Below, in pieces: positions 16,677 through 52,269 of a stretch of 52,644 bases of DNA. Location: positions 1 through 52,644 of the forward strand of contig JAPLWX010000020.1 of assembly GCA_026396415.1 (NCBI GenBank), written 5' to 3'. The position numbers were made by a program, and so were the translations under genes. Positions within the stretch are counted from its first letter, which is position 1. Each line of letters begins with the position of its first letter. The notes under the pieces are model-generated. The model was not told the origin of the DNA. It was given only the letters and a program-made list of their open reading frames with translations, and did no database searches. Source of the DNA: Microcaldota archaeon (lineage in GTDB: Archaea > Micrarchaeota > Micrarchaeia > Anstonellales > Anstonellaceae).

Positions 16677-16753
16677 TTTGCCAGCCCTCTTTTCTCTATG
16701 GCAAAAGTGTCAACTATTTTTCGTGAACCGCACTGATGGAAGGAAAGGGGAAT

Positions 16754-16806
16754 GAAAAAGTTGCAGACAACTTTTTCAGCTATTGTAAATTATCAAATTT
16801 ACAATA
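16754..16806. repeat. two tandem intergenic hairpins
   Basis: gaaaaagttg-caga-caactttttc (10 bp) then tattgtaaatt-atca-aatttacaata (11 bp). Confidence 0.75.
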
Positions 16807-16825: not shown

Positions 16826-17173
16826 TTAGATTAATTCATTGTCATGCATGGACCGCTTCTCGAACTGGCTCTTTGTTCCCAGTGCCCTGTCAACGGGCTT
16901 TTTGCAGTCCCTGACAAGTTTCTTTATACCGCGCGCCTCGGAAATCAGGGTTATTTGCGGCAGCAGATTTTCTGTTTGGTTGATTTTCTTCAGGAGAAGC
17001 CCGTGGGGGTCGACTGCCTTGCGCACCCGGGCGATTTTCAGGGATTGGCGCATGGACGAGATTATTCCCAGGATTTCCTGCTTTTTTAAGTTCAGCTTTT
17101 CCGTGTCTGTCTGGATGGCTTTGTTCGTTAATTTTGTCAATTTCCCACCTTGCCCATTTTCCCGCACAAACAC
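16826..17173 (-). CDS. hypothetical protein, 115 aa
   Basis: Lys/Gln-rich helical ORF LTNKAIQTDTEKLNLKKQEILGIISSMRQSLKIARVRKAVDP. Confidence 0.45.
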   Translation of the reverse strand: MFVRENGQGGKLTKLTNKAIQTDTEKLNLKKQEILGIISSMRQSLKIARVRKAVDPHGLLLKKINQTENLLPQITLISEARGIKKLVRDCKKPVDRALGTKSQFEKRSMHDNELI

Positions 17174-17210
17174 TTTAAAAAGCCATTTTTTTCATTGAAT
17201 TTGAAATCAG

Positions 17211-17455
17211 CATCGAGCTTTGCTCGATGACTTGTCGAGCTCGGCTCGACAATTGTTGAACGCTTGCGCGTTCAACATCTGATGCGTTTTGCATCAGCAA
17301 AACGCACATCGCCGCGCTCTTTCAGCATCGGCAGAGCCGATGTCTGATGCATTTTGCTCCCGATTCGCCTGCAGGCGAATGGGCGCAGTTTTGCAAAGCA
17401 AAACTGCCGTTGCAAAATGCACATCAAATGCTGGAAAAGATGCTACATCTTTTCC
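17211..17455. repeat. intergenic hairpin cluster (array A), includes class I junction element at 17348-17421
   Basis: catcgagc-ttt-gctcgatg; ttgtcgagc-tcg-gctcgacaa; tgttgaacgc-ttgc-gcgttcaaca; tgcgttttgc-atca-gcaaaacgca; catcggc-aga-gccgatg; tgcattttgc[...]gcaaaatgca enclosing two hairpins; ggaaaagatg-cta-catcttttcc. Confidence 0.85.
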
Positions 17456-18846
17456 ACACTGCTCACCGCGTCCTGCGCGTCCTTCTTGTTCCGGTATCTG
17501 CGGTAGAGGACAAAATGCACCCCGCCCACCAGGAACCAGAGGATGGCGAAGTTCCTGCCTGCCTCGTGCAGCCAGATGACGAGGAAAAGCATGGCCACGC
17601 AGCCGAACACGGCGGCAAATGCCAGCAGCGGCACCTTGACGCCTTTCCATTGGATGTTCAGGGGAAGGCAGAACGGGCGCTTGATGTTGGGCTCGCTGAA
17701 TCGCAGCTTTATCAGCGAAAGGCTGGCTATCAGGTAAGCGGTAAGCGCGCCGAAGGCGTAAAGCTCGCCGAGGAAGAACAGGTCGCCGTACGAGGCAAGG
17801 ATGATTGCCACGGTGGAGAACAGGAGGATGGTCACCCATGGGGTGCGGAATGTGGGGTGCACCCACTTGAACCTGCGGGTGAGAAGCCCGTGGTTGCTCA
17901 TGGAATAGGTCACGCGCGAAACGCCTATTATCCCGGTATTCGCGGAGACGAAGCAGATGGCGAACCCTGTGGCGGCAACAATGGGCACGAGGATGCCGGC
18001 AAGCGGAAGCGCCTGCGCCACTGCCACAAGCGGGCTGTCCGACCTTTCCGCAAGCACCTGCGGGGTTACGATGCCCAGTGCCATGATGGATATCAGCACC
18101 GCGAATATGACCACGGACGATACGGCGGTGATATGGGCGCGCGGAAGCGTCTTTTCCGGGTTGCGCGTCTCCTCTGCGCCCTGGGAAATGCTTTCTATCC
18201 CGATGAATGCCACCATGGCAAGCGTCACGGAATAGAGGAAATTGTGGATGCCCGGGCTTTCAGCTATGGGCTTGAAGCCGGAAAGGAAAGTCTCGAGATT
18301 GAATCTAGTGCCGAAGCCCACTGCCATCAGGAGCACGAGCAGGGCTATGGTGCCTACTGTGAGCCAGGAATTCACCCACGAGGATTCCTTGATGCCGAAG
18401 AGGTTGATGGCGACCAGCACAAGAATCATGACGGTGCTTGCTATGGGAAGCATGGGGCGCAATGCCGGGAAGAAGAATGACAGGTACCCTGCCGATGCCA
18501 CTGCGAAAAGGGCGATGTCTATCGTGTAATCCAGCATCAGCCCCCAGCCGCCTATGAAACCGGCGAGCTTTCCGAACGCCCGTTCGCCATAGACCGACGC
18601 CCCGCCAGCAACCGGAATTGCGGATGCGAGCTCCGCATAGCAGAGGCCGGTGAGGACATAGACGCCTGCGGCAATGAGTATGGCAAGCGGCATCGCCCCG
18701 CCTGAATATGCGGCAATGAGGCCAAGCGCGAGGAAGATGTCGGCGCCCACGTCAGCAAAGCCCATGGAGAAGCTGCCGAGGAACCCCAGCTCCTTCTTTA
18801 GCGGGGAAATCCTGGCAATTATGTCCATGGGTGCGGGTATGTCCAT
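17443..18846 (-). CDS. APC-superfamily amino acid permease
   Basis: GFLGSFSMGFADVGADIFLALGLIAAYSGGAMPLAILIAAGVYVLTGLCYAELASAIPVAGGASVYGERAFG; many TM segments. Confidence 0.9.
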   Translation of the reverse strand: MDIPAPMDIIARISPLKKELGFLGSFSMGFADVGADIFLALGLIAAYSGGAMPLAILIAAGVYVLTGLCYAELASAIPVAGGASVYGERAFGKLAGFIGGWGLMLDYTIDIALFAVASAGYLSFFFPALRPMLPIASTVMILVLVAINLFGIKESSWVNSWLTVGTIALLVLLMAVGFGTRFNLETFLSGFKPIAESPGIHNFLYSVTLAMVAFIGIESISQGAEETRNPEKTLPRAHITAVSSVVIFAVLISIMALGIVTPQVLAERSDSPLVAVAQALPLAGILVPIVAATGFAICFVSANTGIIGVSRVTYSMSNHGLLTRRFKWVHPTFRTPWVTILLFSTVAIILASYGDLFFLGELYAFGALTAYLIASLSLIKLRFSEPNIKRPFCLPLNIQWKGVKVPLLAFAAVFGCVAMLFLVIWLHEAGRNFAILWFLVGGVHFVLYRRYRNKKDAQDAVSSVEKM

Positions 18847-26174: not shown

Positions 26175-26239
26175 AAGCCCCCGACGATGGAGCAGAGCAG
26201 GAAGCTCTGCGACAGTTTTTGGCACGAAGTGCCAAAAAG
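26175..26239. repeat. two-hairpin junction element next to tRNA-Thr (element G)
   Basis: Outer aagccccc/gggggctt encloses gcagagc-aggaa-gctctgc and tttttggcac-gaa-gtgccaaaaa. Confidence 0.7.
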
Positions 26240-26264
26240 AGGGGGCTTTGAACCGAAGGTGAAA

Positions 26265-26336
26265 AGCCCCCGACGAGATTTGAACTCGTGACATCCAGTT
26301 TACGAAACTGGCGCTCTACCGCTGAGCTACAGGGGC
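26265..26336 (-). tRNA. tRNA-Thr(CGT)
   Basis: Cloverleaf by eye: acceptor GCCCCTG/CGGGGGC, D stem GCTC/GAGC, anticodon arm CCAGT-TTCGTAA-ACTGG, T arm ACGAG-TTCAAAT-CTCGT, discriminator T; no CCA encoded. Confidence 0.95.
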
Positions 26337-26342
26337 ATTGAC

Positions 26343-26535
26343 AACTGCGAAGCAGGTGGCAATAGGTTGTGCATCAGCACAACCGTGTGGCCAATTTCCC
26401 GGAGGAAATTGGGCAATTGTTGAGCGACGGCAGTCGTCCTTTGGACGACTGCGCCCATTCGCCAAAGGCGAATCGGGAGCTCAACATGTCGGTCAAAACC
26501 AGCAGGTTTTGAGCGCAGGCGTGCGCTTTGCGCGA
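26343..26535. repeat. intergenic hairpin cluster (array B), includes class I junction element at 26418-26486
   Basis: ggttgtgc-atca-gcacaacc; ccaatttcc-cgga-ggaaattgg; tgttgagc[...]gctcaaca enclosing gcagtcgtcc-ttt-ggacgactgc and attcgcc-aaa-ggcgaat; tcaaaacc-agca-ggttttga; gcgc-ttt-gcgc. Confidence 0.85.
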
Positions 26536-28721: not shown

Positions 28722-28965
28722 CGTTTTACGGGGGTTTGGGGGGCGCCGCACTAAGGGGGCGTAGCCCCCTTGGGGTGGCATTGAACTCCTAAGCCCCGAG
28801 GGGCACTAGATTTCCTGTTGACAGATTCCGCGTCTGATCTCGAGTCTAGCGCGATACCGGATTCTGCCACGTCGGCGTGTTCAAATCCCCGGAGGGATTT
28901 GGACTGACAGTCGAGCGAAGCTCGACTGCGTGTTCGGAGATTTGCTTTGCAGCAAATTCCAAAAT
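28722..28965. repeat. intergenic hairpin cluster (array D)
   Basis: aagggggc-gta-gccccctt; cacg-tcgg-cgtg; caaatccc-cgga-gggatttg; cagtcgagc-gaa-gctcgactg; atttgct-ttgc-agcaaat. Confidence 0.7.
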
Positions 28966-29046
28966 CTAATTTCGGTCATTGGCATTGCTGCCTCCGACTG
29001 TTAAGACGGCAATTGTTTAATAAGGTTTATTTCGGAAGTTCTGGTG

Positions 29047-29715
29047 ATGGATATGAAGCCCATAATAGCGCTCAATCTGAAAGCCTACAAGGAATCGCTC
29101 GGCCCGGCGTGCGCGGAGCTTTGCAGGCACGCGAGCGAGGTTTCGCTGCTGACAGGCGTGCGCATAATCGTTGCCCCCCAGGCAGTGGACCTGCGCGAGG
29201 CGTGCCAGATTTGCAGCGACGTCTTCGCGCAGCACGTAGATGCGAATGAGCCTGGCGCATTCACAGGCGCGCTCACCGTGGAGGCGATAAAGGCGGCAGG
29301 GTGCAAAGGGTCGCTTGTCAACCACTCGGAGCGCGGGCTTCCTGAGAAGCAGATAGAAGCGACCATCGCGCACCTGAAGGAAGCTGGGCTGGAGAGCATG
29401 CTTTGCACGAAAGACGCTGCGGAGAGCGCGCGATTGGCAAGATACGAGCCAACTTACATTGCGGTTGAGCCGCCTGAGCTCATAGGAAGCGGCATTTCAG
29501 TCTCCACCGCGCGCCCGGAAGTGGTTTCGGGCACAGTGGAGGCGGTGGCAAAGGTGAACAATACGCCCGTGCTTTGCGGCGCGGGCGTGTCCAATGCTTC
29601 TGACGTGAAAAAGGCGGTGGAGCTTGGCGCAAGCGGCGTGCTTCTCGCAAGCGCGTTCGTGAAGGCAAAGGACCCGAAAAAGCTCCTTACGCAGATGGCA
29701 GAATCAATCGCATGA
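29047..29715 (+). CDS. tpiA: triosephosphate isomerase (archaeal type)
   Basis: PIIALNLKAYKES, VNHSERGL, YIAVEPPELIGSGISVS, GAGVSNASDVKKAVELGASGVLLASAFVKA. Confidence 0.95.
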   Translation: MDMKPIIALNLKAYKESLGPACAELCRHASEVSLLTGVRIIVAPQAVDLREACQICSDVFAQHVDANEPGAFTGALTVEAIKAAGCKGSLVNHSERGLPEKQIEATIAHLKEAGLESMLCTKDAAESARLARYEPTYIAVEPPELIGSGISVSTARPEVVSGTVEAVAKVNNTPVLCGAGVSNASDVKKAVELGASGVLLASAFVKAKDPKKLLTQMAESIA

Positions 29716-29854
29716 TTCTGCCAGACTTTGGCTCGCAAGCCAAAGAAGGTGGCTGAAGCGCTATAGTGACGTTTTGTTTCATATGTGACAAAGCCTTTTT
29801 TAAGGCGGAAAAAAGCATAACCTGCAAACATTTTCAAGTTAGGGAGGTAATGAA

Positions 29855-33332: not shown

Positions 33333-35234
33333 CTAACAGGCGCGCGTTCCGGTTTCCTTTTTCACGCGCGCGATGAAGATGTCGACCGGGATGTTCTCCT
33401 CCACTTTTCCATCGCGCGTGCGGATGGCAAGCATGCCGCTTTCCTTCTCCTTCTGCCCCACCACAAGCATGTAGGGGATTTTCTGCATCTGCGCGTCCCT
33501 TATTTTCGCGCCGATTGTCTCCTGGCGGCAGTCGGCCTGCGCGCGGATGCCTGATTCGCGCATGCGCGCAGCAAGCGACTCGGTGAATTCATTGTATGGG
33601 TCGGAGACGGACAGGAGCACGACTTGCACGGGCGCGAGCCACACCGGGAATTTGCCCGCATAGTGCTCCACGAGTATGCCCAGGAAGCGCTCGAAGCTCC
33701 CGTAAATCGCGCGGTGGAGCATGACCGGCCTGTGCTTCTTGCCATCCGCCCCCTCGTAGGTTAGGTCGAATTTCTCAGGCATCTGCATATCAAGCTGTAT
33801 GGTGCCGCACTGCCAGCGCCTGCCAATCGCGTCTTTCAGGTGGAAGTCTATCTTCGGGCCGTAGAACGCGCCGTCGCCCGCGTTGACCTTGTAGGGAATC
33901 CCTTTTTCAGCAAGCACTTCTTTGAGCATGCGCTCCGCAAACTCCCATGTCTTTTGGTCGCCCATGGCCTTCTCCGGCCGGGTGGAAAGCTCCACCTCGT
34001 AGGAAAAGCCGAACGCTGAATAGGTTTCATGCGCAAGCGCTATCAAATCCGCTATCTCGCTTTTCATCTGTTCTTCTGTGCAGAAGACGTGCGCATCGTC
34101 CTGGGTGAAGCAGCGCACGCGGAAAAGCCCGGAAAGCACGCCTGAAAGCTCGTGGCGGTGCACCAGGCCGAACTCGCCCGCGCGCATGGGCAGGTCGCGG
34201 TAGGAGTGCGAATTCGCCTTGAATATGAGCATGTTGCCCGGGCAGTTCATGGGCTTCACCGCGAAGGGCTGCCCGTCGATTTCGGTGAAGTACATGTTAT
34301 CCTTGTAATGGTCCCAGTGGCCCGATCGCAGCCATAGGGACTGGTTGAGGATGATTGGCGTCTTGTTTATCTCGTAATTCCTCTGCCTCATCTTCTCGGT
34401 CATGAATTCCGCAAGCTGCGAGAGGATGATATTGCCCTTGTCGTGGAAGAATGGCATGCCGGGCGCCTCGGGCTGGAACGAGTAGAGGTCAAGCTCCCTG
34501 CCGATTTTGCGGTGGTCGCGCTTTTCTGCCTCCGCGATGAGCGCGAGGTGCTCGTCGAGCATCTTCTTTTCAGGGAAGGAGATGCCGTATATCCTCTGGA
34601 GGCTGTCATTCGCGGAGTCGGCGCGCCAGTAGGCGGATGATACTTTGGTGAGCTTGAACGCCTGCAGCACGCCGGTCGCTGGGACGTGGGGGCCGCGGCA
34701 AAGGTCGCACCACTTGTCGCCAATGTAATAGGCTGAATGCTCGCCTTCGGGTATTTCGTTTATCATTTCAATCTTGAACTTGTTTCCGGAAAAAAGCTTG
34801 AGGGCTTCGGATTTGGAAAGCTCGACGCGGCGGATGGGAAGGTTTTCCTGCGCGATTTTCGCCATTTCAGCCTCGATTTTTGCCAGGTCTTCGGGCGTGA
34901 AGGCGCGCGCATTGCCAAAGTCATAGTAAAAGCCCTCCTCCACCACAGGCCCGATGGTGGGGAGGATTTCAGGGTAGAGGCGGCTCACAGCCATTGCAAG
35001 CAGGTGCGCCGTGGAGTGGAGAAGCACTTCCCTGCCCTCGGCAGAGGCAGAGGTGAATGCCTTTAATGTGCAGTTGTCCGGAAGCTTGAAGGAGAGGTCA
35101 ACCTGCCTGCCGTTGACTTCTGCGGCATAGGTGGCTGCAAGCAGCCGCTTGCCTATCTTTGCGATGGCATCCGCTGCTGTGGAGCCTGCTGGCACGTCGA
35201 GAATCTTGCCGTCCGGCAATGTGACTTTTGGCAT
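33333..35234 (-). CDS. thrS: threonyl-tRNA synthetase (bacterial-type, TGS domain)
   Basis: MPKVTLPDGKILDVPAGSTAADAIAKIG TGS domain; FYYDF; NCPGNMLIFKANSHSYRDLPMRAGEFGLVHRHELSGVLSGLFRVRCFTQDDAH. Confidence 0.97.
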   Translation of the reverse strand: MPKVTLPDGKILDVPAGSTAADAIAKIGKRLLAATYAAEVNGRQVDLSFKLPDNCTLKAFTSASAEGREVLLHSTAHLLAMAVSRLYPEILPTIGPVVEEGFYYDFGNARAFTPEDLAKIEAEMAKIAQENLPIRRVELSKSEALKLFSGNKFKIEMINEIPEGEHSAYYIGDKWCDLCRGPHVPATGVLQAFKLTKVSSAYWRADSANDSLQRIYGISFPEKKMLDEHLALIAEAEKRDHRKIGRELDLYSFQPEAPGMPFFHDKGNIILSQLAEFMTEKMRQRNYEINKTPIILNQSLWLRSGHWDHYKDNMYFTEIDGQPFAVKPMNCPGNMLIFKANSHSYRDLPMRAGEFGLVHRHELSGVLSGLFRVRCFTQDDAHVFCTEEQMKSEIADLIALAHETYSAFGFSYEVELSTRPEKAMGDQKTWEFAERMLKEVLAEKGIPYKVNAGDGAFYGPKIDFHLKDAIGRRWQCGTIQLDMQMPEKFDLTYEGADGKKHRPVMLHRAIYGSFERFLGILVEHYAGKFPVWLAPVQVVLLSVSDPYNEFTESLAARMRESGIRAQADCRQETIGAKIRDAQMQKIPYMLVVGQKEKESGMLAIRTRDGKVEENIPVDIFIARVKKETGTRAC

Positions 35235-35328
35235 ACGGGGTATCGCGCTGAAAAAATTAATAAACACGCCGACGCGAGATGCTTCCTGGGCAATCTCGCA
35301 TAATTTTCCCATTTTAGACCGAAAGCCT

Positions 35329-35353
35329 TATAATAAACAAATTGTTTATTATA
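35329..35353. promoter_or_regulatory. perfect 12-bp-arm palindrome upstream of abiEi
   Basis: tataataaacaa-a-ttgtttattata, two nt before the ATG, overlapping a TATA-like ttataataa. Confidence 0.7.
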
Positions 35354-35355
35354 GC

Positions 35356-35940
35356 ATGTTCTCTGAAAAAGCCGTTTCGCGCGTGGTTGCCGCCATCGAA
35401 GCCTCCCCCGGCGGGATTGCTTCGCTGGAATTGCTGGAAAGCCTGCGCCTTTGCGGGCGCGATTCGCTCATCACCGCGCTTTCGCGCCTTGGCAAGGCGG
35501 GAAGGGTTGTGCGGCTCAAGCGCGGCGTTTACTCGGCCAGCCCGATGAGGGATGCGTTCGCCTGCGCGCAGGCAACCTATAATGGCTACCTCGCATTTTC
35601 ATCGGCGCTTTGCCTGCATGGCATGATAACGGAGATGCCATTCACAATCACTGTCGCAACCGCCTCGACATCGGAATCGAAAAGATTCGGGCAGTTTGAG
35701 TTCCGGGCGGTTGCGCTGGGGAAGCGCGCGGTGGGCTTTGAGCGGAAGGGCGCATACGTGGTTTCCACGAGGGCAAAGACGCTGTTTGATTGCCTGTACC
35801 TGCCGCGCTATTCCGTGGAGAAGGAAAAGCTGGAAGCGGCGTGGCGCGCGCTTTCCGCGAAGGAAAGGTCGGAATTCGCAGGCTATGCAAAGGAGCTTGC
35901 GCCAAACAGGGGGGATATCCATGATTTCGCCAAACATTGA
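35356..35940 (+). CDS. AbiEi-like type IV antitoxin
   Basis: N-terminal winged-helix-like segment, LITALSRLGKAGRVVRLKRGVYS, C-terminal antitoxin region; overlaps the AbiEii-like gene. Confidence 0.8.
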   Translation: MFSEKAVSRVVAAIEASPGGIASLELLESLRLCGRDSLITALSRLGKAGRVVRLKRGVYSASPMRDAFACAQATYNGYLAFSSALCLHGMITEMPFTITVATASTSESKRFGQFEFRAVALGKRAVGFERKGAYVVSTRAKTLFDCLYLPRYSVEKEKLEAAWRALSAKERSEFAGYAKELAPNRGDIHDFAKH

Positions 35941-36703
35941 CGCCTGCCGCGCGCTTGCAGTGCAGCACGGGCTGCCCCTGCAGTTCGTGGTGAAGGAATT
36001 CTACGTGATGGACGTGCTGGCGCAGCTTTCCTCGCGCGAGGAGTTCCGCAAGGATATGGTGTTCAAGGGCGGCACTGCGCTGAGCAAGGCGTATCTTGGC
36101 GGGGTGCAGAGGTTTTCAGAGGACCTTGACTTTGACATGGATGCCCCTTTTTCGGAAATACGCCGGCGCTGCGGGCGGATTGCGCCCTCGCTTGAGGGCT
36201 ATTCATCCGGGCCTGCAAGGAAGGTGGGCAAAACGCTGCAATTCTATTGCCGTTACAACAACCCTATCGGCGGCACTGACAATGTGAGGATTGACATTTC
36301 GCCGAAAAAAATCATTTCCAGCGCCGAGCCGGCGGTTGGCACCGCAACTTCGCTATTCTCGCAGCGTTCGGTATCCGGCTTTTTGGTTTATTCCCTTGAG
36401 GATTTGGCGGCAAGAAAACTTTGCGCGCTTGCCAGCCGGTGCGAGGGGAAGGACGTTTATGACTGCCACACGGCACTGCCGCTTTGCGGCAGGATGCGCC
36501 AGCCCATCGCGCGCATGCTGGAATCAGAGGGCATGGAAATGGCGCCTGATGAGTTCGTGGAGAATGCGATTGCTGCTGTGGAAAAGGCTGACGCGAAAAA
36601 GCTGCAAAGCCTGGCCAACCCGTTCATTCCCGCAGCGCTGCGCCCGCAGGACTGGCGGCTGGTGAAGGGAAACCTTGTTGCGATGCTATCAAGGCTGCTT
36701 TGA
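35921..36703 (+). CDS. AbiEii-like nucleotidyltransferase toxin
   Basis: MVFKGGTALSKAYLGGVQRFSEDLDFDM; DISPKKII; SLEDLAARKLCALASRCEGKDVYD. Confidence 0.85.
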   Translation: MISPNIDACRALAVQHGLPLQFVVKEFYVMDVLAQLSSREEFRKDMVFKGGTALSKAYLGGVQRFSEDLDFDMDAPFSEIRRRCGRIAPSLEGYSSGPARKVGKTLQFYCRYNNPIGGTDNVRIDISPKKIISSAEPAVGTATSLFSQRSVSGFLVYSLEDLAARKLCALASRCEGKDVYDCHTALPLCGRMRQPIARMLESEGMEMAPDEFVENAIAAVEKADAKKLQSLANPFIPAALRPQDWRLVKGNLVAMLSRLL

Positions 36704-36732: not shown

Positions 36733-36907
36733 CGCGGAGAGGAAAACGCCGAGCGTCAACTGCCGGAGCAGTCCCTCTTTTTGCGCAGCAAAAAGGGGCG
36801 CAATCGCCTGATGCGTCGGGCGATTGCCGTGGCGCGTTTTTGGCACGACAGACAATTGCAAAGCAATTGGATGCGAAGTCGTGCGCAGCACGACAACGGC
36901 GCCAAAA
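36733..36907. repeat. intergenic hairpin cluster (array C), includes a class I junction core at 36772-36830
   Basis: ctgc-cgga-gcag; ctttttgc-gca-gcaaaaag; gcaatcgcc...ggcgattgc; caattgc-aaa-gcaattg; gtcgtgc-gca-gcacgac; outer ttttggc/gccaaaa. Confidence 0.8.
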
Positions 36908-41022: not shown

Positions 41023-44000
41023 CTACTTCTGCGAGAGCGGCAGCGGCTGGCTTGATGCCAGGGCATTGTCATCGTAAAGCGCGAGGATTTCCGCATCGGT
41101 CAGGGCGCGGCTGAACACGCGCACCTCGTCAATCCTGCCGGAGAAGGGCTCGCTGATATAGTCGGGCCCGTTGCCGATTGCAAAGTTGCTGAGGCTCGTG
41201 ATCGGGGTCCCGAGGCTGGCGCTGCTGCCGGCCTGCGCCCCGTTGATGTAAAGCCTTGCCACGCCGCCCTGCCTTGTTGCCGCGACATGGTACCATTCAT
41301 TGTCCTGGATGGAGCCCTCGGGAGATGTCGCATAGCCTTGTATGAGGAGGCCCAGGTAGTGATGGTCGACGAAGAATTCCGTGCCATTGGCATTGCGTAT
41401 GCTGTCATAGTTGCCCATTATGTAGTTGTTAGCGGATGCGCCAGTCGTATTTATCCATGCCGAGAGCGTGAAGTCCCCTGTTCCGCTGAGAAGCGCCGAG
41501 GGCAGCATTATCTTGTCCGTTGTCCTGCCGCCGGTGTTGAATTCGTATGCCCCCCCCACTTTCCCATCAGGCACCCAGGCTGCGCCGGTCTTGGTGCCTG
41601 CGCCCAGGAAGCGGGAATAATCCACAATCATGCCGCGCTCGTCCGAGCTCACGTTGACGTCGAAAGGCATGGAGAGCATGGTCTCGGGCAGGAGCGCCCT
41701 TATCCTCAGGCCGGCATTGTATGCCGCGGTGAGGTTCTGCGCCGCAGCGCCGGAATAGGTGAACGCGAGGTTCATGCTGCACTGCTGCTGGAACCAGCCA
41801 TTGTAGTGGCCCAGGACATCCGCCGGCGTGAGCGAGCGCTTGTAGAAGCGCACCTCGCCAAGCTCGCCTGCAAATCCGCTCGCCCCGGGGCTGCCGATGT
41901 AGAACGCCCCGCTGCTTTCCAGGCTTCCAAGCGAAAAGCCGGCTGGCTGCTGGTAGAGCACGCCGTCCAGGTATACCGAGTAGTTGCCGGTGCGGTCAAC
42001 CGAGAGCGCGACCTGGTGCCAATCGCAGTCGGCAAGCGAAACCGCGGGCAAAATCGAGGCGGCGCTCCCATCGCTGGCGCCCTTGCTGCTTGAGCTGTAC
42101 ATCCCCATGGTGAGCGTGTTGTCCGTGCCCACGGCCCAGTTGATGCCCTGCGGCTTGCCATCGACAGTGGACATCTGCGAGAACAGCACGCCCCCCGGCT
42201 GGATTGCATCTGCGCGCACCCAGGCAAGCATGGAGAAGTCGCTTGCCTGCGTGACGGATACATCGTCTATGTTGTATGGCACGCCGGATATGGGGTAGAA
42301 TCGGAGCTGCATCCTGGCGTTCGGAAGAGTCTTGAATACGTTCACCACCTGGCGCCACGCCGTGTCCGTGGCGGCAGGCTCTATTATTCCGCCATCCGCC
42401 CCCCCGGTGGCATTGGCGTACAGCCATTGCCCGCTTGCCGAGAGGTAGGCATTGTTGATGGTGTCGTAAAGCGCATAGCGCGCAAGCGGGGTGCCCGTGG
42501 TCCCGACGCGCGCCCAGAACGAAAGCACGTACTTCGCATCGCCCGCAAGCGGGCCCATGAGCGCCGAGTTGTATGCATATGAGCCCTCTGCGCCGCTCAC
42601 CGATGCGGATGATGCACCTGAATGGTATGTGCCGGCCGAGCGCGCGAAGCCGACTCCGCCCGCCTTGGCCCAGCCGCTGAACTGCATATCGCCGGTGACA
42701 TTCAGGCTTATGCAGTAGTAGTCGCTGCTGCCCGAAAGCAGAGCGCAGGAATATGGCGATTCGCAGCCGCCCGGGCGGGAGGCGCTGCATTTGGCGTAGG
42801 GCGCGTAGTGGTCGACGCACTGCCCATAGTCCGAGAGGATGGTGTGGTTGGCCCCGTAGCTTGAAACGCCTATGCTTTCCCTGTTCAGCGTGTCGCAGAA
42901 CCCTGCTGCACATTCCGAGTCACTGAGGCAGGCGGCGCCAATCGGGCTGAGCGCGGGCTTGGGCGGTGCGCACACCAGGCTGTTTGTGCCAAGCGAGTCC
43001 TGGCAGCTTCCGGAGCAGCACTCGACGTCCAGGGCGCAGCTTGCATTCTGGGGCACGCATGACTTGCACAATCCTGCGCTGCACAAGCCAGAGGCAGCGC
43101 CCTGCGCAGCGCAGCATTGGCTGTTGGATGCGCAGGAAGCCGAGCTGTTTATCGGTATGCAGGCGGAACAGGCGCCATCCGCGCAAAATGAGCAGCCGGA
43201 CGGGCATTGCGATGAAAGATTGCAGGACTGGCCGCATGACAGTGCGTCCACGCATACTTTCACGCTTGAGTTCTCCAGGCTGGGCCTGCACAGGCCCGAA
43301 AGGCAGTCTGCGCCGGAAGAGCAGTTGAGCATGGGGCTTGCAATCAGGCAGGTCCCTGCGGGGGAGGTTGAGCTGCTGTATTTGCAAGCCATGCCTGAGC
43401 AGCACTTCTGCGCGGGCGAGCAGGCGGCCCTGCTGCAGCTTGTCCCTATCGCCGGGAGTGTGAATGCCGAGGACTCGTTCGGGGCTGAGCATGCCCCGTA
43501 CCTGTCGCATGCGCGGACCTGCATTTTTATCTGCATGCCCTCGGTGCAGCCTTCTGGAAGAAGCTCGCAGCTGAAAGAAGTGGAGCTGTGCCAGAAGCCC
43601 GTTATGGGCGTGTTGGAGGCAAGCCACCTGTACTCGATCCTGACGGGGGTGTCAAAGTCCGGGTCAGGGGGCATGTTGGTGGCGACGCAGTTCTGCACGC
43701 ATGTTATTGTCCCGTTGGAAGCAGACAGGCTCAGCACTGGCACTTGGAATGGGACTGCGGGCGGGTGATTGGCCGCGCATATGCCTTCCTTGCAGGTGAG
43801 GTTGGAGCCGGAGCAGCAGTCAGCGGCAGAAGTGCATGTCCTTCCGCCTTCGCTTAGGCAGCCGACACACGCCCCAAAGTCGGAAGAGCCGGTTGCCAGG
43901 TTGCAGAAGCTGTTCCCGCAGCACTCCGAGTTGGAGGCGCAGGTGACTGCGCCGATCGGGAGGCAGGGGCTGCATGCGCCGCCTGTGCAATAAGGCGCCT

Positions 44001-47000
44001 GGGGGGCGCACTCCGTTGCGGACGCGCAGGCCTCCCCGGCAGCTTTCTTTGCAACGCACACTCCGCCGCTGCAGGTTGATGACGGGCAGCATGAAAGCCA
44101 GGGGGAGCCGGGGCATGTTTCGCCGCCGCTGGTGCACACGCCCGCGTTGCAGGCTGCAGTGCCGCAGCTTGAAGACGCCGTGGATGAGCTGCAAGGCTGC
44201 CCCATTGGCAGGCAGTATGCGCTTTCGCATGAAGTGCACGGATAGCAGGTATGGGAGACCTGGTTGCAGCCGGCCTCGCAGTAGGGTGCATCGCCGGCCA
44301 TGCAGTCTTCATCGATATTGCAGGACTTGAGCTCGCATGCCCCGATGGTGTAGTTCTTGGGGGCGGGAGGCGGCAGTATCGCGCAGCGGTCGGCGGTCAT
44401 TGGCGCGTAATCCGCAACCGTGCCGTAGAGCATGCCGCGCGCGTTTGCCGCGTTGTACGGGTACTGCGACGGGTCTGCAAGCGAATCCGAGCCGGCATAG
44501 TAAGTGGTGTTCCAGCCGGGCTTTGCGGACCTGTTGGAGCCGCAGATGGAGACCTCCTTGCCTATTGCCAGGTTGTACCAGCTGTTGCCCTCGTTCTGCC
44601 CGGGAATGGTGGAGTTGTAGAAGTTCTGCCCGTCTTCCTCCTTTGCATAGAAGCCGGCGGTGGCGCCAAACGTGTTCCAGTAAAACGTGTTGCGCGTTGA
44701 GTGCGACAGGCGCAGCAGGTCGCTCGTGTACGAGGAGGACAGGAATGTGTTGCCGTACATCATGTTGCCGGCCGAATTGTCCTCGAAGTAAGCCGATACG
44801 CCGCCTGCGGCGGACGTGAACGTGGAGCCTGCCACCGTAAGCGCTTCGCCTCCGCTCACCCAAAGCCCGTAGCCGCCGCCCGTATTGGTGCCTGATGAGT
44901 TCGAGACGGCGGCATGGGTGGTTGCAAGATAGATGCCTGCGCCGGTCGCGCCGGTGGATGATGATGAGGCTGCAGCACCGTATATGGATGCATATGAGGA
45001 CGCGCCTTCCACTGAAATGCCGTTTTTGCTTGATGATGATGCGGATACGTTTGAGATGGTGGTGCCTATTGCGCCATCGGCAACCGTTATGCCGTTCCCG
45101 TCCCCGGATGATGCCAAGCCGTTTTGCAGCAGCGTATCATCCGTGAATTGGGCAAGGTAAACGGCATCGCTTGCGGCTGTCACATTCATGCCGGATATGT
45201 TGGTGCCTGAAACGCCGTCCAGGTAAATGCCTGTGCCCCCGGATGCCCGCATGCCTTCAATCGCATTGCCGTCCGAGCCGCCCGATGCCTGCAGGCGCAT
45301 GGCAGTGCCGGTGCCCGCAACGATGGTAATGTTGGCGAAGCGGTTGGCAGGGGAGTTGGTGATGAAAAGGGCGGTGCCTGCGCTGGTGGATGCCGTGTCG
45401 CCCGTGAATGAATTGTTGGCGCTTCCGCCCATGAAAATCCCATAGCCGCCGCCTGTTGCGTAGTTGTTGCTGAAGATGTTCGAGCCCGTGCTTGTGATGT
45501 CCATGCCCGTTCCGTTGCCATTGGCAGTCGCCACGTTGTTGGAGATGTTGTTGCAGCCGTAATCAGGCGAGTTGATGGAGATTGCCTTGCCGGCCGCAAC
45601 GGTGATGGCGTTGCCTGAAAGAGAATTGTTCGCGCTTGATGAGAGGTAGATTCCGAAGTAGCCTGCATCCGCGCTTCCCCTTGTGATTGCATTGAATGAT
45701 ATGGAGTTGTTGCTGCTCTGGTCGAGGAATATGCTGTGCCCGGTTGAATTGGAAAGCACATTGCCGGATATTACCGAGGCCTGGCTGGCGGGCTCCAGGT
45801 GGATTCCGTGCCTGCCTGAAAACACCGTGTTGTTTGCGACCAGGGCGCCCGTGGAACTGGCGATGTCCACGCCGTCCATGGAGGCGTTCAGGGTGCCCCC
45901 TATGACCGAGGCGGAGTCCGACTGGTTGATGCAAACCGCATGGCTGGAGGCGGAGGTTGCGTTGGAGCTGATGAGTTGGCTGTTATGGGACGCGGAAAGG
46001 TAAATGCCATAGCCGTACTGCGAGTATGCAAAGTTGTTGGAAAGCGTGCTGTAGTTTGAGCCTATGAGCAGGATGGCGGCTGAATGGGTTGCAAGCGCGG
46101 CATTGCTGCTTGTTATATGGATGGTGCTGTTCTGGATGTTGCTGTTCCTGGATGTGTTGAAGTAGATGCCAAATGCAAAGTTGCTTATGTTGCAGTTCTT
46201 CACCGTAGTGTTGAATTGGGTGGAGTAGACGCCGTAGGTGCCGGTGATGTTCGCACCGAGCAATGCGCCGCCCTGGCAGTCGAATGTGCCGTTGCTTCCC
46301 CCGTTTATGTAAATTCCGTGCCCGCTGCCGCTTGTGTTGATGCTTATTGCGGTGAAGTTGTTCCTGTTCGAGCTGTTCGCCGCGTAAATCCCATAGCCCG
46401 TGGAGCCGTTCACAAGAATCGAGGAGAATGCGGAATCGCTCGTGCTGCTCAGCACGACGCCTGACGAGCTGCCGTTGGCGCCGGCGCTGGTGCCGCCACT
46501 GCCTTTCGCGCCGCCTGTGCCGCCGCGGATGCCGGCTATGTTGTTCGAGGAGAGGCTGTTGGAGCTGGAGGAGATGAGGTAGATGGCAGAGACGCTGCCT
46601 CCAAGGCCGCCATAACCTAAGTTGCAGCCGCCTGTGCCGCCCGCGCCTCCGGTGAGCGTGGAGATGGAGTTGGAGGTGAGATTGATGAAGCTGGATGAGG
46701 ATAAGTAGATGGCTGAAACGGCGCCGCCTGTGCCGCCTGTGCCGCCATTGCCGCCTGTGCCGCCAATGCCTGCAGTGATGTTTGAGATGATATTGGAGGT
46801 GAGGTTGCTGGAGTTGGAGGAGGAGAGGTAGATTGCGGCAGAAGTGCCGCCTGGACTTCCGGCAGCGCCGCTGGAACCGTAGATTCCGGATATGCTGTTG
46901 CCCGTGATGATGGATTTGTTGATGCTTGTCAATGCCAGCCCGGCCGAGATGCTGATTGAAGAGAGATAGATTGGCGCTGATCTGGTGCGGGTGATGTTGA

Positions 47001-50000
47001 CCGTTTGCGACGAGATGTTGAGGGAGGTGGCATTGTAGAAGAAGAGGACGGGCTGGCTATCCATTGTATTTGCCGAGGCAGGCACATAGTAGTCGCCTGA
47101 CGCCTGGGTGGAAGTGAATGTGTTGGAATAGGAGTTGCTGTCTATTGAGAAAGCGGTTGAGAAGCCCGCGGCGCCGGAATTGCCGCCTGCCCCGGGCCCG
47201 CCTCCCGAACCGCCCGAAAGGGTGGAGATAATATTCGAGAGGAACAGGTTTGAGGCGGAAGAGATTAGGTAGAAGGCGGCAGAAGTGCCGCCAGTGCCGC
47301 CAACGCCTCCGCCTCCGCCGCCGCCGCTTGTGCCGCCTGTGCCGGCAGTGAGGCTGGAGATGTTATTGGAAGAGAGGTTGTTGGAATTGGAGGATGAGAT
47401 GTAAAATGCGGAGGCGGTCCCGCCAGTGCCGCCGCCGCCCCATGTGCCGCCAGTGCCGCCTATGCCTGCGAAGAGGCCCGAGACGGCGTTGGAGGTGATG
47501 TTGTTCGAGCTTGATGATGAAAGGTAGATTGCGATGGAATTGCCGCCCGCGCCGCCAGTAGCAAAGCTGGTGCCGATATCGCCGCCGGCAGCCCCGGTGA
47601 TATTCGAGATGATGTTGCCGAAGAGGATGGAACTGCTTGCCGATGCCAGGTAGATGCCGTAGGCAGGATATCCTGCGCCGCCCGCCGTGCTGGTGCTTCC
47701 CGCTGTGAGGTTGAGGAGGGTGTTCGAAGATATGTTGTTGAGGGGAGACGCCGCGTAGATTCCATAGACGGCTGAATCCGAAGGGGCTGCATCGTCCCTG
47801 ATGGTGTTGTTGTAGAGGGTGGAGCGGTTCGCGCTTGAATTGAGGTAGATGCCGGTGGGAAACTTCTTGATGATGCAGTTTTTCACAGTTGTGTTGGACT
47901 GGTTGGAGTAGACGCCGGAAGTCCCCGAGGCGTTCGTACCCATAAGTGATATGCCTTGGCAGTCCACGCTTACGTTTGAGCCGCCGTCGATGTTGATTGC
48001 TGATGAGCGGTTGGAGGAGGCGGTGGTGTTGATGATTTGCGTGTTGTGGGAAGCAGCCGTGACGACGATGCCATAACTAGATGTACCTGAAACGAGGTTG
48101 CGTGCGATTGAATTGTTTATGATGGTGTTGGGGCTCAGTTGAATGCAAATGCCAATAAGTGAGTTTGATGTTCCTGTGAAGTTGGAGAGTATGATGGAGA
48201 TTGTGTTATAGATATAGATACCACGACTGCTGCCGGATGTCCCCGTTGAGTTGGTAATTGTGCTATTGGTGTTGCTGTCGCCGAGATAGATGCCTACTCC
48301 GGTTATTGCAATGGTATTGCTGTTTGTTATACTATCGTTGCCTCCACCAGTGATAAATATGCCCGCGCCATGCCCCCAAGACCATGCTTTCGTTGTTGAT
48401 GCATTTACATTGTCTATCGTCCCGTTCTTCGCCCCTCCGGCAAAGTAAATGCCAACGTCGAAGTTGGAAATGTTGCAGTTCTTCACCGTGGTGTTGGGCT
48501 GGTTCGAGTAGACGCCGTAGGTGCCGGTTGAGTTGTTGCCGGCGATTGAGAAGCCTGCGCAGTTGAGCGTGACGTTAGCTGCTGTCACATTGAAGCATGT
48601 GGAGCCGCTGATGCTTGCGTTCGTGGTCATGTTGTAGGCCATATTTGCGGATGAGAGGGCGCCGCACCGGAGGATTGTTGGCGCGCTTGCGTTTGTCAGG
48701 GGCGCATAGTCCGCGCAGCCTGCGAAGTTGCAGGAGAACTTGCCGCCTGAGGTGGAGTTGCCGTAGGGATAGCCGCTGCCGGATGAGCCGATGTAGAGGC
48801 CGGGGATTGAGGAGTTGGAAGTGCCATAGACCTGCACGCTGCCGTTGATGACGTTTGCCCAGATGTTGCCCTCATTTGGCGTGGTGCCTATCGCCCCCGG
48901 GCTTGCGGTCTGCGCGTATTCCGCCTTTATCCAGTCGGCGGAGCGGTTGGTGTTCGAGATGCGCGCCTCGTCAAGGGAGCCATTGTATTTACCCCAATAT
49001 GTTGTATCTGTTTCATAGCCAATTCTCACCGTATTCGTGCTAAAAGTCCATGCACCATTCGCCGAAGCATTTGCAACCTTAACACCATCTACGTAAAGCA
49101 TTGCCATGCCTCCATTCGGAGCCGCAATTAAGGTCACAAGATGCCAGTTGCCATCTACAACACTTCCACCTGACATCCAACTAACTATACTTGCTGTGGC
49201 GTTCTTTATTTGTACGGCTGGAGAGGCACCGGAAAGCACTATAGTAATGCCATTATACGCAGAAGCTCCTCCGGCACGGCAGAATAATGCACAGGAGGCG
49301 CCACCCGTGCCATTGATTGACCCCCCACTTGACTTCACCCATATTGACCATGTGGATGTTGTGCTATCATAGTTCGTAGAGTTAGGAATGTATATGTGGT
49401 CGCCTGCAGTTGAATTGAATAAAGCTCCTCCGTCTGCCATCCCTGTTATGGCTGTTGGTGTTGTGATTGTTCCATTGTTTCCATAAATTGTATCTATTGC
49501 GTTCAAAGTTGTCCCATTTCCGAGATGATAAACCGCCACAAAGTTGCTGTCCCATGTCCCAGTCTTGTTCTCCCCGCTTGCGGCGCCCGTGTTGCCAAGG
49601 TAGGCGTAGATGCGCGTGAGGGCGCTGCCCGCGTAGTTGCCCTGCACCCAGAAGGTGCTGTTGACAGTGGAGTTGCCGCAGCTTTCAACCTCATAGTTGA
49701 GGATGTTTTTGGAGCTGTCCGTGAAGCGCACGTTGGCGCAGGTCGTGGCGTTCCAGTAGGTGGAGTTGGTGGTGTTGAGGCTCACAAGTGCAGGGAAGTT
49801 CGTGAGACTGCTTGCCACCGTGGTGTTGATGTCGATTGGCAGCATATATGGCCATGGGGCAAGCTGCGCAGTGGCTGTGGAGCAGTTGTAGTGGTTGGAG
49901 CCGTTGGTGTCGTTCACGTACAGGCCGGTTGTGGCGGTGAAGTTGTTGAGGCAGAAGGTGTTGTTGTTTGAGATGCTTGCGATGTAAAGAAGATTGTTCG

Positions 50001-52269
50001 CCCCGCCAATGGTGTTGTTGCTTATGATTGAGTTGTTGCAGTTTGACATTTTCAGCGTGTTGGAATTTGCTCCGGTTGCGGTTATCGTGTTGCCTATTAT
50101 GTTGATGTTGCTGCCAGCCAGATTGATGCCCGATGTCACGCCTCCGATTATGGTGTTGTTTGCCACGCTTACATTCACCGGAGCACCTGTAAATGACATT
50201 CCATCTACTATTCCGATTAGCGTGTTGTTCATTATTGCTATATTGTTCCCATTGGCTAATCGGATTGCCGCGTATGATGCTCCGGTTGAATACATGTATG
50301 AGTTCGTGACCGACACGGTTGTGCCGGGATACACGAACATCCCATAGCCAGTTATCGCCGAGAGGTTGCAGTTCGTCACATTGACGTTGCTTACTGTCGT
50401 CATATATATTGCATTAGCATAGGGGTAAGTGTCGTTGCGCGTGATGGTTATGTTTGTGTCCTTTACCGTCACTTTGTCGGTGGATACTGCCTGCACTCCG
50501 TGCTGGAAATTGCTTATCACGCAGTTCATCACGGTGGTGTTTGCCTGTGTGGTGTATATGCCGTTTGTGCCGGTTGAGTTGTTCCCAGTTATCGACCAGC
50601 CTGCGCAGTTGAGCGTAACGTTTGCCGCCGTGACAGTAAAGCATGTCGAGCCGTTGATGCTTGCGTTTGCGGTCATGTTGTAGACCGTGTTTGCACTGGA
50701 GAGGTTGCCGCACTGGAGTGCGGCCGCTGTGCTTGCATTGGTGAGAGGCGCATAGTCCGCGCAGCCTGCGAAGTTGCAGGAGAACTTGCCGCCGCTGCTT
50801 GCCGTTGTGTTGCTGTAGGGAACGCCTGCGCCGGATGTGCCGATGTAGAGGCCTGGAATTGATGATGCTGTTGAGCCGTAGACTGAAATGCTGCCGTTCA
50901 GCACATTTGCCCAGATGTTGCCCTGGTTGCTGCCGTTGTAGGTGCAGTTGTAGTAGTTCGAGCCGTTCAGGTCTTGGACGTAAGTCGTCGGGCTTGTTCC
51001 TGAATTTGAGAAGTTGTTCAGGCAGAAGGTGTTGTTGGATGCGCTTGAGTCAAGATAGAGCAGGGTAGTGGCATTGAGGATTGTGTTGTTGATGAATCGT
51101 GTTCCAACGGTTCCGCCAACGTTCTTTATGAACCCGACAGCATATGTCATTCCATAGCCGTTGATTGTGCTGTTTGCCACAGTGGCGTTTGTCGTGTCCT
51201 GCAACAGCAATGACCCGTATGTGCTGCTTCTGCCAGTTGCAGTGCAGTTATTGATTATTACGCCAGTGCTAAGATATACATACAGTGCCATTGATGTCGT
51301 TGAAACGCCGATTGAGGATAGCACGGAATTGGTTATTGTGGTGTAGTTACTGGTTTGGAGGATGATGCCATATTGCCCGTTGCTTGTCTGCGTGACTTTT
51401 GAGGTCACATTATCCACTGTGCTATTGGTTACGTTATTGAGACTTATTCCCCGTGTGTATTTGCTTATGTTGCAGTTCTTTACCGTCAGGTTGACTATGT
51501 TGATAGTAGAGATGCCCAAATAGGGATTGGCATCGTTGCCGGCTATGTTCGCGCCCATGCAGTCCACGGTCACATTGTTTCCGCCATCAATAACGATGCC
51601 GTGCGCACTCGTGGTGGTTATCGTGTTTTGGTTGAGGCTGTTCCTGTGCGCGCTTGAAGTAATGTAGACTGCATAGCCTCCGGTGAGTGTTTCGGCGATT
51701 GTGTTGTTCTGGATGAGGCCGTCGGTTGAACCGCTGTAGCGTATGCCGTTGGAGAAGCCCGAAACGTTGCAGTTCTTCACCGTGGTGCCCGTTCCTGCGC
51801 TGTAAACACCCCACGTGCCGGCTGCGCTCACGCCTGTTATTGTCTTGCCCATGCAATCAATCACAACGCCGCTGCCTGAATTGACTGTGATGGCCGCGGC
51901 GGTGTTCACGGTTGAGATGGAATAGAGCGTGTTGTTCTGTATTATGGTGTTTGCCGAAGAGCCCGTGTTCCTGATGGCAGTGTAGCGCGCGGCATTGGTG
52001 ACGTTTATGGTGTTGCTTGATATGATGCCGTTTGACGCGCCGTTGAACTGGATGCCGTCCTCAAAGCCGGTTATTATGCAATTCTTCACGGTTGTGTTGG
52101 ACTGGCCGGAATAGACGCCATATGTGCTGGCGGCATTGTTGCCGGTTATGGAATGCCCGTTGCATTCAATTGTCACATTGTCCGCCTGCACGTTGAAGCA
52201 CGAGCCGTTGCTTGCCAGGTCAGAGGTCACATTGCACACGTAGTTTGGCGTGGCAAGATTGCCGCACAC
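41023..52269 (-). CDS. giant modular surface protein: parallel beta-helix repeats, DUF2341/LamG-like domains, Gly-rich helices, Cys-rich region
   Basis: 3748 codons open; repeated SGSTCFNVTAANVTLNCAGFSIAGNNSTGTYGVYSNQPNTTVKNCNISNF (NosD/PbH1-like), LamG-like WSIWVKSS..LYVDGVKV..GYETDT and ISAWINTT..LYINGAQAGSS. Confidence 0.9.
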   Translation of the reverse strand: MCGNLATPNYVCNVTSDLASNGSCFNVQADNVTIECNGHSITGNNAASTYGVYSGQSNTTVKNCIITGFEDGIQFNGASNGIISSNTINVTNAARYTAIRNTGSSANTIIQNNTLYSISTVNTAAAITVNSGSGVVIDCMGKTITGVSAAGTWGVYSAGTGTTVKNCNVSGFSNGIRYSGSTDGLIQNNTIAETLTGGYAVYITSSAHRNSLNQNTITTTSAHGIVIDGGNNVTVDCMGANIAGNDANPYLGISTINIVNLTVKNCNISKYTRGISLNNVTNSTVDNVTSKVTQTSNGQYGIILQTSNYTTITNSVLSSIGVSTTSMALYVYLSTGVIINNCTATGRSSTYGSLLLQDTTNATVANSTINGYGMTYAVGFIKNVGGTVGTRFINNTILNATTLLYLDSSASNNTFCLNNFSNSGTSPTTYVQDLNGSNYYNCTYNGSNQGNIWANVLNGSISVYGSTASSIPGLYIGTSGAGVPYSNTTASSGGKFSCNFAGCADYAPLTNASTAAALQCGNLSSANTVYNMTANASINGSTCFTVTAANVTLNCAGWSITGNNSTGTNGIYTTQANTTVMNCVISNFQHGVQAVSTDKVTVKDTNITITRNDTYPYANAIYMTTVSNVNVTNCNLSAITGYGMFVYPGTTVSVTNSYMYSTGASYAAIRLANGNNIAIMNNTLIGIVDGMSFTGAPVNVSVANNTIIGGVTSGINLAGSNINIIGNTITATGANSNTLKMSNCNNSIISNNTIGGANNLLYIASISNNNTFCLNNFTATTGLYVNDTNGSNHYNCSTATAQLAPWPYMLPIDINTTVASSLTNFPALVSLNTTNSTYWNATTCANVRFTDSSKNILNYEVESCGNSTVNSTFWVQGNYAGSALTRIYAYLGNTGAASGENKTGTWDSNFVAVYHLGNGTTLNAIDTIYGNNGTITTPTAITGMADGGALFNSTAGDHIYIPNSTNYDSTTSTWSIWVKSSGGSINGTGGASCALFCRAGGASAYNGITIVLSGASPAVQIKNATASIVSWMSGGSVVDGNWHLVTLIAAPNGGMAMLYVDGVKVANASANGAWTFSTNTVRIGYETDTTYWGKYNGSLDEARISNTNRSADWIKAEYAQTASPGAIGTTPNEGNIWANVINGSVQVYGTSNSSIPGLYIGSSGSGYPYGNSTSGGKFSCNFAGCADYAPLTNASAPTILRCGALSSANMAYNMTTNASISGSTCFNVTAANVTLNCAGFSIAGNNSTGTYGVYSNQPNTTVKNCNISNFDVGIYFAGGAKNGTIDNVNASTTKAWSWGHGAGIFITGGGNDSITNSNTIAITGVGIYLGDSNTNSTITNSTGTSGSSRGIYIYNTISIILSNFTGTSNSLIGICIQLSPNTIINNSIARNLVSGTSSYGIVVTAASHNTQIINTTASSNRSSAINIDGGSNVSVDCQGISLMGTNASGTSGVYSNQSNTTVKNCIIKKFPTGIYLNSSANRSTLYNNTIRDDAAPSDSAVYGIYAASPLNNISSNTLLNLTAGSTSTAGGAGYPAYGIYLASASSSILFGNIISNITGAAGGDIGTSFATGGAGGNSIAIYLSSSSSNNITSNAVSGLFAGIGGTGGTWGGGGTGGTASAFYISSSNSNNLSSNNISSLTAGTGGTSGGGGGGGVGGTGGTSAAFYLISSASNLFLSNIISTLSGGSGGGPGAGGNSGAAGFSTAFSIDSNSYSNTFTSTQASGDYYVPASANTMDSQPVLFFYNATSLNISSQTVNITRTRSAPIYLSSISISAGLALTSINKSIITGNSISGIYGSSGAAGSPGGTSAAIYLSSSNSSNLTSNIISNITAGIGGTGGNGGTGGTGGAVSAIYLSSSSFINLTSNSISTLTGGAGGTGGCNLGYGGLGGSVSAIYLISSSSNSLSSNNIAGIRGGTGGAKGSGGTSAGANGSSSGVVLSSTSDSAFSSILVNGSTGYGIYAANSSNRNNFTAISINTSGSGHGIYINGGSNGTFDCQGGALLGANITGTYGVYSTQFNTTVKNCNISNFAFGIYFNTSRNSNIQNSTIHITSSNAALATHSAAILLIGSNYSTLSNNFAYSQYGYGIYLSASHNSQLISSNATSASSHAVCINQSDSASVIGGTLNASMDGVDIASSTGALVANNTVFSGRHGIHLEPASQASVISGNVLSNSTGHSIFLDQSSNNSISFNAITRGSADAGYFGIYLSSSANNSLSGNAITVAAGKAISINSPDYGCNNISNNVATANGNGTGMDITSTGSNIFSNNYATGGGYGIFMGGSANNSFTGDTASTSAGTALFITNSPANRFANITIVAGTGTAMRLQASGGSDGNAIEGMRASGGTGIYLDGVSGTNISGMNVTAASDAVYLAQFTDDTLLQNGLASSGDGNGITVADGAIGTTISNVSASSSSKNGISVEGASSYASIYGAAASSSSTGATGAGIYLATTHAAVSNSSGTNTGGGYGLWVSGGEALTVAGSTFTSAAGGVSAYFEDNSAGNMMYGNTFLSSSYTSDLLRLSHSTRNTFYWNTFGATAGFYAKEEDGQNFYNSTIPGQNEGNSWYNLAIGKEVSICGSNRSAKPGWNTTYYAGSDSLADPSQYPYNAANARGMLYGTVADYAPMTADRCAILPPPAPKNYTIGACELKSCNIDEDCMAGDAPYCEAGCNQVSHTCYPCTSCESAYCLPMGQPCSSSTASSSCGTAACNAGVCTSGGETCPGSPWLSCCPSSTCSGGVCVAKKAAGEACASATECAPQAPYCTGGACSPCLPIGAVTCASNSECCGNSFCNLATGSSDFGACVGCLSEGGRTCTSAADCCSGSNLTCKEGICAANHPPAVPFQVPVLSLSASNGTITCVQNCVATNMPPDPDFDTPVRIEYRWLASNTPITGFWHSSTSFSCELLPEGCTEGMQIKMQVRACDRYGACSAPNESSAFTLPAIGTSCSRAACSPAQKCCSGMACKYSSSTSPAGTCLIASPMLNCSSGADCLSGLCRPSLENSSVKVCVDALSCGQSCNLSSQCPSGCSFCADGACSACIPINSSASCASNSQCCAAQGAASGLCSAGLCKSCVPQNASCALDVECCSGSCQDSLGTNSLVCAPPKPALSPIGAACLSDSECAAGFCDTLNRESIGVSSYGANHTILSDYGQCVDHYAPYAKCSASRPGGCESPYSCALLSGSSDYYCISLNVTGDMQFSGWAKAGGVGFARSAGTYHSGASSASVSGAEGSYAYNSALMGPLAGDAKYVLSFWARVGTTGTPLARYALYDTINNAYLSASGQWLYANATGGADGGIIEPAATDTAWRQVVNVFKTLPNARMQLRFYPISGVPYNIDDVSVTQASDFSMLAWVRADAIQPGGVLFSQMSTVDGKPQGINWAVGTDNTLTMGMYSSSSKGASDGSAASILPAVSLADCDWHQVALSVDRTGNYSVYLDGVLYQQPAGFSLGSLESSGAFYIGSPGASGFAGELGEVRFYKRSLTPADVLGHYNGWFQQQCSMNLAFTYSGAAAQNLTAAYNAGLRIRALLPETMLSMPFDVNVSSDERGMIVDYSRFLGAGTKTGAAWVPDGKVGGAYEFNTGGRTTDKIMLPSALLSGTGDFTLSAWINTTGASANNYIMGNYDSIRNANGTEFFVDHHYLGLLIQGYATSPEGSIQDNEWYHVAATRQGGVARLYINGAQAGSSASLGTPITSLSNFAIGNGPDYISEPFSGRIDEVRVFSRALTDAEILALYDDNALASSQPLPLSQK
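48701..48747 (-). repeat. 47-bp exact repeat inside the giant gene, copy 1
   Basis: ggcgcatagtccgcgcagcctgcgaagttgcaggagaacttgccgcc. Confidence 0.85.
50747..50793 (-). repeat. 47-bp exact repeat inside the giant gene, copy 2
   Basis: Identical to 48701-48747. Confidence 0.85.

Follow-up and report, generated by a model that had tools for sequence, protein, structure and literature searches.

The DNA between an amino acid permease gene and its downstream neighbour in this archaeon carries a dense array of perfect hairpins. We consider it probable that this array belongs, as a mosaic copy, to a family of palindromic repeats dispersed between genes, also found in some relatives, which moves as DNA, is maintained by template switching and is mainly selfish or neutral. 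The window analysed here, a stretch of 52,644 nucleotides, is contig 40 of a 1.74-Mb assembly of 52 contigs. The best nucleotide relatives of the permease gene lie in MAGs labelled Candidatus Micrarchaeota and Candidatus ainarchaeum.

Anatomy of the array

The array (array A, 17211–17456, minus strand) is a composite of palindromic repeat modules that runs from the permease stop codon to the start region of the next gene; its parts are written here in permease sense. Both neighbours lie outside the repeat: upstream the permease gene (PF13520; 17443–18846, minus strand), and downstream a co-directional small ORF (16826–17173, minus strand) of 115 aa from its first GTG, for which no Pfam match was found. 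This ORF likely starts at a TTG after GGCAAGGTGGGAAA, matching the leader in a relative discussed below. A pair of 11-bp hairpins, both AT-rich and lying side by side (TGAAAAAGTTG..CAACTTTTTCA and TATTGTAAATT..AATTTACAATA), occupies 16753–16806; the first recurs exactly in L018 (16209–16234) and nearly so in L030.

A preliminary description of the window had reported short perfect stems covering nearly every base from 17173 to 17443. The packing is real, but the first stem begins only at 17211. Counting perfect stems of 7 bp or more with loops of 3–5 nt, we found nine (7–11 bp) between there and 17456, at 17211–17229, 17232–17252, 17254–17277, 17279–17297, 17283–17306, 17326–17342, 17363–17380, 17385–17407 and 17432–17456, the fourth being an alternative to the fifth. 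Dinucleotide shuffles of 17174–17456 gave a mean of 0.30 such stems and a maximum of five (n = 5000), and the single-strand fold of the array stands at z = −12.4 (DNA) or −10.6 (RNA) against shuffles. That description missed a tenth stem, which pairs 17348–17357 with 17412–17421 and encloses two other hairpins. The short loops of the palindromes are closed by a stable C-G pair.

Read from the permease end, the array (all parts on the minus strand) begins with an 11-bp hairpin, TGGAAAAGATG-TAG-CATCTTTTCCA (17432–17456), which overlaps the 3′ end of the permease gene. As first described, the permease stop codon (TAG, 17443–17445) forms the loop of this hairpin; it does so because the palindrome ends at the 3′ end of the gene, and nothing in these data shows that its position has a meaning. 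Next comes the hairpin TGCATTTTGC ... GCAAAATGCA (17348–17421), a genome-wide repeat that we term a host hairpin since its loop is here occupied by a 54-bp twin-hairpin module (E1 core, 17358–17411). Within this core the frame CGGCA..TGCGCCCATTCG..CGAATCGGGA is conserved and the apical stems co-vary; its two hairpins are GCAGTTTTGC-TTT-GCAAAACTGC (17385–17407) and ATTCGCC-TGCA-GGCGAAT (17363–17380). Then follow CATCGGC-TCT-GCCGATG with CTGA after it (17326–17342; frame as in CATCGAGC..GCTCGATGCTGA), and TGCGTTTTGC-TGAT-GCAAAACGCA with TCAGATG after it (17283–17306), an unfilled relative of the host hairpin. Last is a triple-hairpin module, E2 (17208–17280), with the layout GATG-TTGAACGC..GCGTTCAA-..-TTGTCGAGC..GCTCGACAA-GT-CATCGAGC..GCTCGATG-CTGA and homologous copies on contig 7 (L015) and contig 22 (L022).

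The earlier view that promoter, terminator and CRISPR models do not account for the array held up. A promoter and terminator scan of the region returned nothing that explains it, the lone intrinsic-terminator match within it being a 5-bp stem that is not among its perfect stems; a CRISPR array was rejected given that the hairpins differ from one another and are irregularly spaced.

A dispersed family and a nested module

Comparing intergenic with shuffled sequence, as the preliminary description had proposed, gave 319 perfect stems against 45 expected. This density, like the others for this genome, comes from a 705-kb sample of stretches containing 104 kb of intergenic DNA, with intergenic limits set by a purpose-built simple codon-usage gene finder; pattern and model searches were run on the whole assembly. 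Clusters of at least three stems number 48 in the 705 kb, with five of them in the window. Stem densities for other genomes refer to short stretches, including array-rich contigs that were partly picked for having matches.

Array A is far denser in stems than chance allows, as first described, but the implied picture of a lone array of unrelated hairpins did not survive. Each stem does have its own sequence within the array, but the same hairpins recur in other arrays of the genome: array A is a member of a genome-wide family in which stems have come to differ through changes made in pairs. Two hairpins of array A make up a module of their own that lies within a third hairpin. It is 88% identical over 110 bp to L015 and 84% to L022, and it matches arrays on contigs 7, 22, 50, 52 and others. 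The hairpin CATCGAGC-nnn-GCTCGATG has nine copies in this genome, and the form in which it was searched for, ATCGAGC-nnn-GCTCGAT, has nine in G012, a member of another genus of the family. Overall, the modules of array A recur in their own genome, in that other genus and sparsely across the class.

The window holds several further arrays. A second large one, at 26192–26512, contains an E1 module and flanks and partly overlaps a tRNA-Thr gene (26265–26336), and clusters in the same style lie at 28882–28957, 29696–29815 and 36777–36894, the one at 29696 overlapping the 3′ end of the ORF before it (29044–29715). Hairpin arrays are also common near the ends of contigs of this genome, where edge spacers totalling 20 kb hold 65 stems, so they may break short-read assembly. 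Elsewhere in the window are a 3748-aa ORF (41023–52269) whose product, with its many short repeats and its Cys-rich stretches, is apparently a giant surface protein, and two adjacent ORFs (35131–36703) that by eye resemble an AbiEi/AbiEii-type toxin–antitoxin pair.

E1 is a twin hairpin of 54–57 bp with the scaffold CGGCAG(..)CTGCGCCCATTCG(..)CGAATCGGGA. Searches with a covariance model that took in both E1 and its outer stem gave 25 matches in its own genome at E ≤ 0.01 (ten at E < 1e-8), five in G012 and a thin scatter among other families of the class, and none in most of the searched relatives of the same genus or class; the exact scaffold pattern had no match among the viral contigs of IMG/VR. 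The case for E1 as a unit that moves, or is moved, rests mainly on an order of events in which the host hairpin came first and the insert second. The TGCATTTTGC/GCAAAATGCA host hairpin occurs 14 times in the genome, and 12 of the 14 copies have a loop of 3–6 nt; the filled copies hold 54 nt (the E1 core of array A) and 55 nt (contig 22), with no intermediate sizes, and on contig 22 the E1 core lies in the opposite orientation relative to the host flank. Two further host hairpins are filled, with 54 and 57 nt, and the outer stem CAGATGC/GCATCTG encloses E1 in L112 and a 3-nt loop in L015. The second E1 copy of the window (26415–26489, plus strand, inside the array at 26192–26512) occupies a different host stem, TGTTGAGC/GCTCAACA, and in L203, from another family, the sequence reads as one twin hairpin within the first hairpin of another. 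Various host hairpins therefore carry E1 in their loops, and it occurs in either orientation.

One orthologous spacer is available for comparison. In G008, a relative of the same genus with a permease 61% identical, only about 37 bp, free of hairpins, separate the permease stop from the next start. Gene order, the leader GGCAAGGTGGGAAA that precedes the next gene in both genomes, and a weak similarity of that gene to its counterpart in the window (24.5% identity over 110 aa, E = 0.03 against a tiny database) suggest that the two spacers are orthologous. With permeases only about 61% identical, the difference could also be a deletion in G008. Insertion is inferred from copies within the genome together with this one distant orthologous spacer: G008 is the nearest relative with such a spacer, no movement between closely related strains was caught, and an unsystematic look for target-site duplications found none.

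Covariation at the level of DNA or RNA

The stems of module copies differ from one another almost entirely by paired changes. Among six E1 copies aligned by sequence (MAFFT), pair cells show 27 double against three single changes and 98% remain paired, while shifting the partners by one to three columns lowers pairing to 35–41%. A wider E1 set is 94% paired and has 293 double-changed cells, in an alignment that was fitted to its model and so leans towards it. Three E2 copies, with few differences among them, show two to four double and no single changes. Stems are also predominantly perfect (325, against 93 with one mismatch).

Such covariation, very strong as it is, might be taken to mean that array A is a structured non-coding RNA or an mRNA 3′-end element, with hairpins selected in the transcript for end protection or termination. 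The array does lie directly downstream of the permease gene, and stem density in tandem and convergent spacers (3.7 and 3.1 per kb) is twice that in divergent ones (1.7 per kb). However, selection on a transcript should favour G.U pairs, and the hairpins have no such sense-strand bias: in tandem spacers, the hairpins that carry a single mismatch, read along the sense strand, have 10 G.U and 17 A.C, unlike the tRNA stems of the same genomes that served as a control (21 G.U, 4 A.C; Fisher p = 7e-4 against the hairpins). One-sided changes are hardly seen, modules are present in both orientations, and the perfect stems of the array are not followed by a T-run. Nor are stems confined to the DNA just past stop codons; when tested by position they were distributed through the spacer, and placement at 3′ ends only was not seen. 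An Rfam search of the window matched a tRNA and nothing in array A. Taken together, paired change of the arms without wobble bias points to palindromes at the level of DNA and not to a selected RNA, terminator or promoter, and we regard a transcript-level element as unlikely.

Two causes would fit this pattern of covariation: strict selection for a palindrome in the DNA, or a process by which one arm is copied to the other. The first would apply if the hairpins were cruciforms that selection keeps as sites bound by a DNA-structure protein (with a nucleoid, gyrase-like or replication function). Perfect DNA palindromes with short loops closed by a stable C-G pair, and a module frame conserved across families of the class, are what such sites might look like, and strong selection on DNA structure would also yield perfect stems without wobble bias. 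Binding sites sit poorly, however, with the patchy distribution of the family (most members of the same genus or class have no module match), with the near-empty orthologous spacer in G008 and with the free turnover of arm sequences, and we judge this explanation quite unlikely. We prefer template switching because close copies show paired changes without intermediates. Template switching at quasipalindromes both makes and repairs perfect stems (PMC8794818, PMC3820800), and the likeness extends to its signature, a two-sided change in one event with no G-U intermediates. It is a mutational process rather than an element, and is proposed here as the keeper of the perfect stems.

Known palindromic repeats and the proposed mode of spread

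Our best reading is that the family is REP/BIME-like in habit but does not pass as REP, and that in anatomy it comes closest to the palindromes of organelle DNA. Like the GTAG and CGTC families of REP/BIME (PMC3733652), which are extragenic palindromes of 20–40 bp in mosaic clusters and both orientations, the palindromes described here are short, lie outside genes and occur as many copies, often in clusters. Clustering in mosaics being the habit of REP/BIME, and two Y1 transposase genes being present in the genome itself, the palindromes might be mobilised by a RAYT or an IS200-type Y1 transposase. The family nevertheless differs from REP/BIME in having no GTAG or CGTC tag (2.9% and 4.9% of hairpins, against a background of 2.2% and 2.6%), no linked RAYT and, as a positive feature, nesting in loops; G-T pairs, often observed in the stems of GTAG REPs (PMC3733652), are rare. 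The hairpins beside the two Y1 genes are different ones, a search of the array-bearing genomes G012, G008, G005, G017 and G048 (incomplete MAGs) gave no Y1 gene, and no transposase that tracks the family was found. Mobilisation of this kind appears to us very unlikely. As a separate observation, near-identical palindromic units at L038:12011–12084 and L043:7011–7084 have CCCACGCCT ends, as in the terminal hairpin by the Y1 transposase of L105, and are possibly transposase-less derivatives of that IS200-like element.

The likeness to organelle repeats is one of anatomy, drawn from published descriptions rather than from comparison of sequences. In Volvox carteri, mitochondrial and plastid DNA contain short, nested palindromic repeats (PMC2670323), and there too hairpins with 3–5 nt loops fill the noncoding DNA; here, in contrast, the repeats lie in an archaeal chromosome, a defined twin hairpin of 54–57 bp enters the loop, and copies differ by paired changes in their stems. 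The double-hairpin elements in mtDNA of the fungus Allomyces (Paquin et al., 2000, as cited in PMC5910586) and the repetitive hairpin elements known from sponge mtDNA (PMC2800124) are, as far as those descriptions go, dispersed, probably mobile and intergenic, as here. Sponge elements have conserved stems and variable loops (PMC2800124), whereas here both the loops and whole apical stems vary. Two hallmarks of the organelle type were found in this genome, a twin-hairpin unit dispersed at many intergenic sites and a palindrome inserted within a palindrome. Our search, which extended to the open-access literature, turned up no account of such repeats from DPANN archaea or Micrarchaeota, and a look there for short dispersed repeats of cyanobacteria likewise gave no papers.

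We propose that the modules travel as DNA and that their preferred points of entry are exposed hairpin loops, which might be the tips of cruciforms or lagging-strand hairpins, so that nested arrays would arise. Stems would be kept perfect by template switches between the arms (quasipalindrome correction), a new base in one arm being copied to the other. Arrays would be tolerated in spacers and thinned from divergent promoter regions, any effect on mRNA 3′ ends being secondary, and for this reason we take them to be mainly selfish or neutral; tolerated, self-propagating palindromes are the best-supported description of the arrays. More tentatively, they may represent a new class of mobile DNA in Micrarchaeota-type archaea, which would transpose in either orientation into extruded hairpin loops, its own included, and so build branching, self-nested palindromes in which template switching rewrites both arms and unrelated stems come to share a folding frame.

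If true, this would place nested palindromic repeats of the organelle type in free archaeal chromosomes, and layers dated by their order, host hairpin first and insert later, would show how nested palindromes grow. The arrays would also serve as naturally occurring data on strong covariation, usually taken as proof of a functional RNA, in what is apparently DNA: a caution for RNA discovery based on covariation, and a test bed for the template-switching account of compensatory change.
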